NCBI GenBank assembly: GCA_036377595.1
Contig: DASUYB010000124.1
Span: forward strand, 1 to 64,000
DNA from: Longimicrobium sp.
GTDB taxonomy: Bacteria; Gemmatimonadota; Gemmatimonadetes; Longimicrobiales; Longimicrobiaceae
DNA: 64,000 nucleotides
Reading direction: 5' to 3'
Position 1 is the first letter of the stretch; every line of letters begins with the position of its first letter. A program made the translations under genes and the position numbers. The notes beneath the pieces are model-generated. The model made no database searches, was not told the origin of the DNA, and saw nothing but the letters and a program-made list of their open reading frames with translations. Positions 40,288 to 46,835 of this stretch are shown here, piece by piece.

Positions 40288-41181
40288 CTACTTCGATGAC
40301 AGCCAGTCGAGGATGGCGTCGCTGACCGCGTAGTCGCTCACCGCGTCGAAGGCGGCGAACATCGGGCTGGAGTTGACCTCCATGAAGCGCAGCTCGCCCG
40401 TCTCGGGATCGGCCTTGAAGTCCGCCGCGCCGTAGTCCATCTCCAGCGCGTCCATCAATCTCCCGAGCCCGGCGAACACGCCGGCGTCCACCTCGCCGGG
40501 GGCCAGGTGAACGACGCGGCTCTGCTCGTCGACGCGGTAGTCCAGCTCGTCGGATTCCACGCGGAAGGCCTCGAACCGCCGCCCGGCTCCCACCCCCACG
40601 GCGTAGACGCGCACCTCGGGCGGAACCAGGCGCTGCTGCACGAACGCGGGCGCGGCGGAGCGGCCTTCGCGGCGCTCCGTCTTCTCCAGCAGGTCCTCCA
40701 TCTTCTGCGCGAACCCCCCGCCCGGTACCGGCTTGGCGATCATCGGCCCGAGCTCGCCCGCGCGGCGCTCCAGCGCGTCCAGCTCGTTGGTGATGAGGGT
40801 GCGGGGGATGGGCAGCCCCACCCGGCGCGCCAGGTCCAGCATGAACGGCTTGTTCCCCTCGCCGCGATAGCGCCGGTTCAGCATCCGCACGCCGGGGTGC
40901 GCCAGCAGCCAACCCAGCAGCGTCATGTACCACGCCTGCGAGCGCAGCTGGGTGACCGGGCGCTTGTCGGCGAGCACCGAGAACACGTCGTAGCGCAGGA
41001 ACACGCCGCCCGGGCACACCTCCTCGCCGTCGACGGCCAGCCGCTCGGACTGGAAGTCCCAGGTGAGCGCGGGGTTGGCGGCGCCCACGCGCAGCACCCG
41101 GGCGCCCAGCCCGCGCTGCTCCATGCGGCGGACGATGGAATCGACGTTGAAATCCGCTTCGCCCCCGGCGATCAGCAGCAC
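40288..41181 (-). CDS. graspetide-type ATP-grasp ligase (MvdD/RimK-like)
   Basis: This 297-residue ATP-grasp protein resembles the RimK/MvdC-MvdD branch that forms ester or amide links between side chains of a precursor peptide. Features: VLLIAGGEADFNVDSIVRRM; NRRYRGEGNKPFMLDLARRVGLPIPRTLIT; PMIAKPVPGGG; FVQQRLVPPEVRVYAVG; and DYGAADFKADPETGELRFMEVNSSPMF, with the Asp and Glu/Asn metal ligands. The start is the GTG at 41181, preceded by AGGAG at nine bases; a longer frame would run through the precursor gene. It lies 77 bases after a 40-residue ORF that looks like its substrate. Confidence 0.85.
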   Translation of the reverse strand: MLLIAGGEADFNVDSIVRRMEQRGLGARVLRVGAANPALTWDFQSERLAVDGEEVCPGGVFLRYDVFSVLADKRPVTQLRSQAWYMTLLGWLLAHPGVRMLNRRYRGEGNKPFMLDLARRVGLPIPRTLITNELDALERRAGELGPMIAKPVPGGGFAQKMEDLLEKTERREGRSAAPAFVQQRLVPPEVRVYAVGVGAGRRFEAFRVESDELDYRVDEQSRVVHLAPGEVDAGVFAGLGRLMDALEMDYGAADFKADPETGELRFMEVNSSPMFAAFDAVSDYAVSDAILDWLSSK

Positions 41182-41258
41182 GGTCCGGATCTCCTGCGAC
41201 AGGGTGGAAAACAGGGCGGGCGGCCCCGGAACGAGGCCGCCCGCCCGCTCTGCCGGGC

Positions 41259-41381
41259 TCAGAACGAGCCGAACGGGTTGTCCACCGGCGTGGGCGACGG
41301 AGCGAACAGGTCTTCCTCGCACCCGCGGTTGGTCGTGGGGTTCGTGTCCTCGCCGCAGGCCTGCGTCTTAGTGCCGAGCAT
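41259..41381 (-). CDS. putative graspetide precursor peptide
   Basis: This 40-residue peptide starts MLGTKTQACGEDTNPTTNRG and ends LFAPSPTPVDNPFGSF. The middle NPTTNRGCEEDLF holds Thr next to a Glu/Glu/Asp cluster, the side-chain chemistry that graspetide ligases join by ester links; the PFGSF end is a plausible recognition element. Being short, it is easily missed. Support comes from a good ribosome site (GGGAGG six bases upstream), a promoter at 41448-41476, and the downstream ATP-grasp gene. It is not a known microviridin precursor (no PFFARFL). Confidence 0.7.
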   Translation of the reverse strand: MLGTKTQACGEDTNPTTNRGCEEDLFAPSPTPVDNPFGSF

Positions 41382-41447
41382 CGGGCGCCTCCCTGTGTGC
41401 GGTTATGGGTGCCGCTACCGCGCAGAATCGGCACCCGTTATCCGCAA

Positions 41448-41476
41448 CTTATCACACTACGTTGGGGATGCGTCAA
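41448..41476 (-). promoter_or_regulatory. sigma70-like promoter for graspetide genes
   Basis: On the minus strand TTGACG (41476-41471) and GATAAG (41453-41448) are spaced by 17 bases. It is about 67 bases upstream of the precursor ATG, in a locally AT-rich patch. Confidence 0.55.
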
Positions 41477-43312: not shown

Positions 43313-43411
43313 CGCTCGCCATCCGCGAAGGGCGAGCGGGATATTCCTGAACGACGAACGCCCAGCAGCACGACTCGCTCCCGCGCGATGGGAGCCGCAC
43401 GGAGGTGCACG

Positions 43412-43984
43412 ATGTCGACACAGCCCGCAGCCCGTCCCTGGACGTACGAGGAGTTCGCGCGTCTTCCGGACGATGGGCAGCGCTACGAAGTCATCGGGGG
43501 AGTGTTGTACGTGTCTCCTGCTCCGCAACCGCTTCACCAGGAGATCTCGGCTCGCCTGTTCGAGCTGCTGAGGCCGTTCGCACGCAAGAACGGACTCGGC
43601 CGTGTGTTGTCCGCTCCCATCGACGTGCTCTTCGGTGATGGCGACTACATGGAACCCGACCTCGTGTTCATCCGCGCCGGCCGGAGAGGCGTGTATACGA
43701 AGCGCGGTCTCGAATCCGCTCCCGATCTGGTGGTCGAGGTGATCTCTCCCACGACGGGGCTGCGCGACCGCAGCATCAAGCGCGAGCGGTACGCGCACTT
43801 CGGCGTTCCGGAATACTGGATCGTCGATCCGTCCGCGGAGCGGATCGAGGTGTATCGCCCCGAGTCCGAGGCGCCATCGGTGCTCATCACCGATATCCTC
43901 GATTGGCAGCCCGTCCCGGACGGTCCGAAGCTCACGATCGACGTGGTCGAGCTCTTCAGCGACCTCGACGAGCTGCTGGAATAG
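43412..43984 (+). CDS. Uma2 family PD-(D/E)XK nuclease-like protein, copy 1
   Basis: This 190-residue protein of the Uma2 family (DUF820) has a restriction-endonuclease-like fold. EPDLVFIRAGRR and PDLVVEVISPTT supply the Asp and Glu/Val/Glu of the PD-(D/E)XK core; RSIKRERYAHFGVPEYWIVDP follows, with the Lys. Uma2 genes multiply in cyanobacteria and other groups, and their targets are unknown. The upstream ~65 bases and the first 28 codons are nearly identical to those of the next gene, so this is a recent tandem duplicate that then diverged in its 3' part. GGAGG precedes the ATG. Confidence 0.88.
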   Translation: MSTQPAARPWTYEEFARLPDDGQRYEVIGGVLYVSPAPQPLHQEISARLFELLRPFARKNGLGRVLSAPIDVLFGDGDYMEPDLVFIRAGRRGVYTKRGLESAPDLVVEVISPTTGLRDRSIKRERYAHFGVPEYWIVDPSAERIEVYRPESEAPSVLITDILDWQPVPDGPKLTIDVVELFSDLDELLE

Positions 43985-44159: not shown

Positions 44160-44723
44160 ATGTCGACACAGCCCGCAGCCCGTCCTTGGACCTACGAGGA
44201 GTTTGCGCGTCTTCCGGACGATGGCCAGCGCTACGAAGTCATCGGGGGGGAGCTTTTCGTGTCGCCCACGCCAAAAGCGATTCACCAGAAGATTTTGATG
44301 CGCCTGGGGGCCGCGCTCGAGGTGTTCGCGGTCGAGCACGGCGTCGGGGAGGTGTTCGGGCCATTGGACGTGTTGTTCGGCGAGGAGGACTATATCGCGC
44401 CGGATCTCGTGTTCGTGCGTCGCGAGCGGATCGACATCGTGACGGATCGGGGAGCGGAAGGTCCGCCCGATCTCGTGATCGAAGTGCTTTCGCCCAAGAC
44501 GGCGATCCGCGATCGCGGGATCAAGCGCGAGCGGTATGCGCACTTCGGCGTCCCCGAATACTGGATCGTGGATCCCACGCGGCGGCGGATCGAGGTGTAT
44601 CGTCTGCGGGAGGATGCGGAGCGGCCGGCGGAAATCGCCTCCGAGCGGCTCGAATGGCAGCCGGTTCCGGATGGCCCTGTCCTCACGCTCGACGTGCACA
44701 AGCTGCTCCGCGACTTCCGCTGA
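44160..44723 (+). CDS. Uma2 family PD-(D/E)XK nuclease-like protein, copy 2
   Basis: This 187-residue second Uma2 copy begins with the same MSTQPAARPWTYEEFARLP and shares APDLVFVRRERI, PPDLVIEVLSP, and IKRERYAHFGVPEYWIVDP. Core residues are intact. Middle and C-terminal parts differ from copy 1 more than the ends do, suggesting duplication followed by divergence or gene conversion. It lies 176 bases after copy 1 and 80 bases before hutU, inside the histidine-degradation region, though no functional link is known. Confidence 0.88.
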   Translation: MSTQPAARPWTYEEFARLPDDGQRYEVIGGELFVSPTPKAIHQKILMRLGAALEVFAVEHGVGEVFGPLDVLFGEEDYIAPDLVFVRRERIDIVTDRGAEGPPDLVIEVLSPKTAIRDRGIKRERYAHFGVPEYWIVDPTRRRIEVYRLREDAERPAEIASERLEWQPVPDGPVLTLDVHKLLRDFR

Positions 44724-46628: not shown

Positions 46629-46835
46629 ATGAAGAAGCTCAGGCTGAGGATGGACGAGCTGTGCGTCGAGTCGTTCCCGACGGCGGAGGGCGTCGGCGAC
46701 CGGGGGACGGTGAACGGTGCGGGCCGCACCTTCCCGGGTACCGGCTGCCACTCGTGCGAAAACCCGTCGGCGTGCATCGAGACGTGCCCCAACACCTGCG
46801 ACAACTCGTTCGACCTCTGCACCTGCGCGTGCTGA
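46629..46835 (+). CDS. short leader-type peptide D (putative RiPP precursor)
   Basis: This 68-residue peptide has leader MKKLRLRMDELCVESF and DRGTVNGA at about residues 24-31. The core is Cys-rich: GCHSCENPSACIETCPNTC, then DNSFDLCTCAC. Core spacing (CPNTCDNSxDxCTCAC) is the same in the next gene. GGGAGGG lies upstream of the ATG. An AT-rich stretch at 46536-46570 is the likely promoter. No modification enzyme is encoded close by. Confidence 0.72.
   Translation: MKKLRLRMDELCVESFPTAEGVGDRGTVNGAGRTFPGTGCHSCENPSACIETCPNTCDNSFDLCTCAC

Follow-up and report, generated by a model that had tools for sequence, protein, structure and literature searches.

A two-gene locus of a Longimicrobium species, a soil bacterium, probably constitutes a minimal graspetide system in which the core of a 40-residue precursor is cross-linked by an ATP-grasp ligase guided by a C-terminal follower tail on its substrate. 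With somewhat less confidence, we take the locus to represent a widespread natural branch of the graspetides that has no N-terminal leader and in which a short C-terminal xPFGx[FYR] follower recruits the ligase. In the general view, an N-terminal leader steers the enzymes of RiPP pathways. The locus lies on the minus strand of the window, by which we mean the whole 64,000-nucleotide stretch of DNA that was analyzed, and its features are listed in Table 1. The earlier note on this DNA had pointed to a short Thr-containing, acidic ORF beside an ATP-grasp ligase gene, and both were present where it had placed them.

Table 1. Features of the precursor-ligase locus, in window coordinates
Feature	Positions	Strand	Basis
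ATP-grasp gene (GTG start, AGGAG upstream) for a predicted macrocyclase of 297 aa, a graspetide synthetase	40288..41181	-	Profiles; PDB sequence and fold matches; invariant residues
15-bp GC hairpin followed by TGTTTT, in the gap between precursor and ligase	41214..41246	-	Terminator scan; folding
Precursor gene	41259..41381	-	Translation; ribosome-binding site and start; homologs upstream of orthologous ligases
NPFGSF end of the precursor, putative follower motif for docking	41262..41279	-	Frequency versus control ORFs; ligase tree; orphan precursors
Core unit 2, TTNRGCEE, residues 16-23, plesiocin-type TTxxxxEE	41313..41336	-	Sequence; matched in L014 and L016
Core unit 1, KTQACGED, residues 5-12; putative Lys/Thr donors and Glu/Asp acceptors	41346..41369	-	Position-matched to homologs
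Ribosome-binding site GGGAGG, just upstream of precursor	41388..41393	-	Sequence
Weak promoter-like TTGACG-17-GATAAG	41448..41476	-	Read by eye

The ligase is related to PsnB

The nearest solved relative of the ligase by sequence is PsnB (PDB 7drm; E 5e-23, or 2e-29 with a profile), and PsnB is also the best fold match to its predicted model (pLDDT 93; Foldseek E 7e-20, probability 1.00). Six residues at positions typical of ATP-grasp catalysis (D254, E268, N270, K111, K150, and R191) are invariant across 35 aligned relatives. The best NCBIfam profile was TIGR04187 (tgmB, "ATP-grasp ribosomal peptide maturase"), yet its score of 80.5 bits is far below the cutoff of 350; the MvdD/MvdC profiles also fell below their cutoffs. 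In a phylogenetic tree, 40 members of the family form one separate clade, to which PsnB and a haloarchaeal enzyme from Halocatena are nearest and from which TIGR04187/tgmB is set apart. Comparison of sequences and of the model thus gives good support to the prediction that the enzyme is a macrocyclase of the PsnB/MdnC type. It is the only ligase at the window locus.

The family is sparsely distributed. The ligase was found in 6 of the 395 genomes of the phylum and in 7 of the 21 of the family, and a profile search also recovered it from Acidobacteriota, Cyanobacteria, Verrucomicrobiota, Pseudomonadota, and Bacteroidota. Four further samples yielded it in 1/339, 2/347, 7/342, and 1/338 genomes, counts that take in the genomes that served as sample centers. 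Searching the genome contigs with a nine-sequence alignment returned 34 loci, and a scan with a single sequence returned none. No relatives were found in viral contigs, and a plasmid search gave only distant tgmB-like enzymes.

The ligase is paired with a family of repeat precursors

Directly upstream of the ligase, 37 loci in six phyla carry a precursor gene whose product is rich in Thr and Glu and is built of repeated units. Across relatives, the upstream ORFs consist of TTxxxGEE units, with 1 to 24 units per precursor; many Longimicrobium precursors have 5 to 8, and the maximum of 24 occurs elsewhere. In Bacteroidota, the N-terminal part of the precursor is longer and contains a GG pair, and the tail described below is absent. 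Cyanobacterial, verrucomicrobial, and alphaproteobacterial precursors have in common an N-terminal beta domain of about 100 residues, for which one example (L025:5276-5611) and 18 homologs were collected; its model (pLDDT 89) had no match in the PDB. Neither the precursors nor this domain matched any entry in Pfam, NCBIfam, or the PDB. The consistent pairing, together with the structural match to PsnB and the invariant catalytic-type residues, lends good support to the reading of the two genes as a graspetide-type precursor and its ligase. The earlier note had named two outcomes that would speak against this reading, namely, that relatives lack a conserved precursor or that the ligase is paired with something else; the precursor proved to be conserved, and the ligase homologs are paired with the precursor family.

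The 40-residue precursor of the window (MLGTKTQACGEDTNPTTNRGCEEDLFAPSPTPVDNPFGSF, from the ORF translation) ends 77 bases before the ATP-grasp gene, and both genes have good ribosome-binding sites. The core motif of plesiocin is TTxxxxEE, and units of this form are present as TTNRGCEE in the window and as the many TTxxxGEE units of relatives. Where a single TT unit had been recognized before, the core in fact holds two. Unit 1 aligns by position with [KT]T[LA][AV]CGE[ED] in four short homologs, and unit 2 has counterparts in TTARGCEE (L014) and TTAPRYEE (L016). Lys substitutes for the first Thr in unit 1; because KTxxxxEE units are also present in alphaproteobacterial precursors, a Lys-Glu/Asp amide at this unit is plausible.

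This short form of the precursor occurs in four Longimicrobium genomes as five copies. Its layout is [KT]TxxCGE[ED], TTxxxCEE in most copies, a linker, and VDNPFGSF or a similar end. Invariant in all five copies are T6, C9, G10, E11, E22, and NPFG.F, and the Cys pair is retained in three of the four genomes. Looking for homologs of the peptide next to ATP-grasp genes, as the earlier note had suggested, revealed conserved short precursors upstream of orthologous ligases (L013, L014, and L016). Because these have matching spacing of Thr/Lys, Cys, and Glu/Asp and the same end, we conclude that the 40-residue peptide is not a chance ORF.

Between the two genes lies a strong GC hairpin with a U-run that had been overlooked before. 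The segment from 41190 to 41258 folds with -46 kcal/mol (z -3.9), and comparable hairpins occupy the same place in L013, L015, L016, and L018. Partial terminators often set the level of the precursor above that of the enzyme in RiPP operons, and the hairpin is probably such a partial terminator, lowering expression of the ligase. Upstream of the precursor, the "good promoter" reported earlier could not be upheld at that strength: promoter-like elements can be read there, but a consensus promoter scan found no site meeting the consensus.

A conserved C-terminal tail and no N-terminal leader

In Longimicrobium precursors with clean ribosome-binding sites, the start codon lies only two to six residues ahead of unit 1, so there is no room for an N-terminal leader. 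NPFG[SA]F, or a sequence close to it, forms the C terminus of nearly all of these precursors. PFG occurs within the last eight residues at 28 of the 37 loci with an identifiable precursor, compared to 4 of the 6,684 other ORFs of the same loci, which served as controls (Fisher p about 1e-65, a significance inflated by near-copies and shared ancestry). A chance C terminus was ruled out by these control ORFs. The loci with a PFG tail span Gemmatimonadota, Acidobacteriota, Cyanobacteria, Verrucomicrobiota, and Pseudomonadota, and four more loci have the variant ends AFGSF, AFGEF, or ALGSF. The tail is kept whether the precursor has no N-terminal extension, the beta domain, or a basic N terminus (L021). 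Its last residue is Phe or Tyr in most lineages and Arg in the alphaproteobacterial ones.

The presence of the tail agrees with the phylogeny of the ligase. Mapped on the ligase tree, tail presence and absence require 2 changes, a number as low as which was reached in 0 of 500 shuffles (mean, 6.6), although near-copies contribute to this clustering. Among six held-out ligase loci, four were tailed, two of these being near-copies of a known locus. The divergent held-out loci L106 and L107 are tail-less; the former has a GG leader. In L107 (G1356), a ligase of the family accompanies a precursor of seven units from which the PFG tail and any obvious leader are both missing, and a ligase of this family may thus work on the core alone. 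Within the ligase, position 179 was the only residue separating the tailed type from both tail-less types, too weak a signal to name a pocket, and the comparison of ligases for PFGxR with those for PFGx[FY] is confounded by phylogeny.

The earlier note had suggested, from the missing microviridin motif PFFARFL, that the precursor may belong to a group of its own. This motif is indeed absent from the 40-residue sequence; the support for a separate group comes from elsewhere, namely, the lack of any N-terminal leader and the conserved xPFGx[F/Y/R] tail.

Orphan precursors and bromoperoxidase fusions

When the 21 genomes of the family were searched for the encoded tail, four gave matches, and a reversed control pattern gave none. 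One match, in the window's own genome, is an orphan multi-unit precursor ending in VDNPFGAF (G000:C170:1214-1441; L070). A protein search revealed a second in the same genome, ending in VNPFGGF (G000:C62:13693-13926; L081 and L092). No ligase was found near either orphan. A search of PDB chains for PsnA2 with an orphan precursor gave only chance matches. The genome thus has one ligase of the tailed type and three scattered tailed precursors, an arrangement that a docking tag would allow. Both orphans adjoin genes resembling those of amino sugar metabolism (GlcNAc kinase- or glucosamine-6-phosphate deaminase-like and GH20-like hexosaminidase).

The second ligase of the genome, on C173, and its counterpart in L019 each follow a vanadium-dependent bromoperoxidase, identified by PDB matches to E 8e-64. 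The bromoperoxidase genes are located at G000:C173 (L002:118-1332; L072) and L019:7004-8947, in two Longimicrobium genomes. About five TT/ST/SS...EE units, without a PFG end, form the C terminus of the enzyme. From this arrangement, the bromoperoxidase itself seems to be the ligase substrate in this small clade, and the fusions suggest that enzymes, as well as small inhibitors, can be decorated with graspetide cross-links.

Proposed mechanism and alternatives

We propose that the ATP-grasp enzyme would activate Glu and Asp side chains of the precursor with ATP and join them to Thr and, at one position, to Lys. Two hairpin-like bicycles could result, one per unit (KT...ED and TT...EE), with the loss of up to four water molecules, and the two conserved Cys residues, one per loop, may add a disulfide. 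Instead of an N-terminal leader, the NPFGSF tail would serve as the docking element, a follower by which the enzyme recognizes the precursor. The same ligase would probably also act on the tailed multi-unit precursors at other sites of the genome. The likely function of the product is to inhibit proteases, by analogy with plesiocin and with the characterized graspetides, for which such activity has been described (PMC8939145). Should the ligase be recruited by a C-terminal follower, then any protein ending in TTxxxxEE units and the tag could be cross-linked, be it a free peptide, a dispersed orphan precursor, or a folded domain with such a tail.

The tail could instead serve another step. The ligase of a graspetide pathway might read the TTxxxxEE core units themselves, independently of a leader, with the PFG tail used for export, protease trimming, or partner binding. 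The core units of L107, which come with neither leader nor tail, and the tail-less units of the bromoperoxidase-linked loci fit this reading, and unit number and linkers vary freely among precursors, as recognition of the core would allow. The bromoperoxidase-linked ligases (L002 and L019), if functional, work without a tail, which counts against docking. Against recognition of the core stand the close agreement of the tail with the ligase tree and its occurrence in precursors of widely different size and phylum; moreover, no transporter or protease gene was seen adjoining the pair in the window. We consider this account unlikely.

It is very improbable that the enzyme, rather than cross-linking side chains, acts like RimK or other peptide ligases, appending an amino acid or attaching the peptide to a different molecule. 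Its fold class is common to RimK and LysX, and generic RimK models match it weakly, but PsnB and other macrocyclases are clearly closer by sequence, fold, and tree, and the paired TT/EE pattern recurs many times within the precursors, as is reported for PsnB substrates. Nor do we give more than the slightest credence to the 40-residue ORF being a chance or decayed sequence while the orphan multi-unit precursors are the real substrates of the ligase. In its favor are the existence of the tailed multi-unit precursors at C62 and C170, the lower regularity of the short Cys-containing form compared with the multi-unit ones, and the second copy in L013, whose unit 2 no longer has its TT pair. However, four Longimicrobium genomes retain the short form, and in them its spacing is similar, its tail the same, and a ribosome-binding site present; three of the four also preserve the Cys pair. 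In the comparison with L014, synonymous changes are found at 8 of the 28 identical residues. The simplest reading remains a graspetide with its docking element shifted to the C terminus.

Comparison with known graspetide systems

The window system most resembles plesiocin and PsnB (group 2), with which it shares the ligase fold, the nearest solved sequence, tandem TTxxxxEE units, and the predicted use of one ligase for all bonds. It differs in that its ligase is only about 26% identical to PsnB and belongs to a separate clade, and in that its precursor lacks an N-terminal leader and has the C-terminal xPFGx[FYR] tail, Lys, and Cys. With microviridin and its ligases MdnB and MdnC, it has in common the ATP-grasp macrocyclase fold and predicted ester and possible Lys amide bonds, whereas the leader motif and the two-ligase MdnB/MdnC set are missing, the core is different, and the ligase is more distant.

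Fuscimiditide offers a parallel to the tail. The graspetide synthetase ThfB still works when the leader of its precursor, ThfA, is moved artificially to the C terminus, as was recently done, and RPFG has been proposed as the key motif (PMC13003496). In both systems, then, a short proline-aromatic-glycine motif would be the key recognition element, functional from the C terminus, although the likeness between the PFG tail and RPFG extends over three residues. In ThfA, the motif naturally lies in a 67-residue N-terminal leader and was moved by engineering (PMC13003496), while in the window PFG is naturally C-terminal; by analogy, nature's equivalent of the engineered leader could be the xPFGx[FYR] end. 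The fuscimiditide system also has another core and an associated methyltransferase. The neighbors of the window locus are a TonB-like protein and hutH, and no protein isoaspartyl methyltransferase was recognized among them by eye.

As far as we found, a C-terminal recognition element in graspetides had previously been shown by engineering only (PMC13003496). Among the papers covered by our literature search, none was found to mention a natural C-terminal recognition motif in graspetides. In the accessible part of a 2026 survey, long precursors with repeated motifs are described for groups 34 and 35, and group 35 is said to consist of a synthetase and precursor only (PMC13097080). That part mentions no C-terminal motif for these groups, and loci of the window type may already be described, for example, within groups 34 or 35 (PMC13097080).

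If follower-guided graspetides form a natural family, their very short C-terminal tags would be ready for use in stapling peptides and the tails of proteins. Such a family would also account for the chance that precursors of this kind escape searches relying on a leader. A substrate of 40 residues makes the question of what the synthetase reads directly testable.

Other genes in the window

Behind a urocanate hydratase gene on the plus strand, positions 46629 to 46835 encode a Cys-rich ORF of 68 residues (MKKLRLRMDELCVESFPT...) that resembles a pinensin-type lanthipeptide precursor and had no NCBIfam match. A similar ORF adjoins the C173 ligase. At 43388-43984 and 44160-44723, also on the plus strand, are two tandem, very similar genes (MSTQPAARPWTYEEFARLPDDGQRYEVIGG...) that resemble paralogs of a Uma2-type nuclease. 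This pair is inserted between the histidine degradation genes hutH and hutU.
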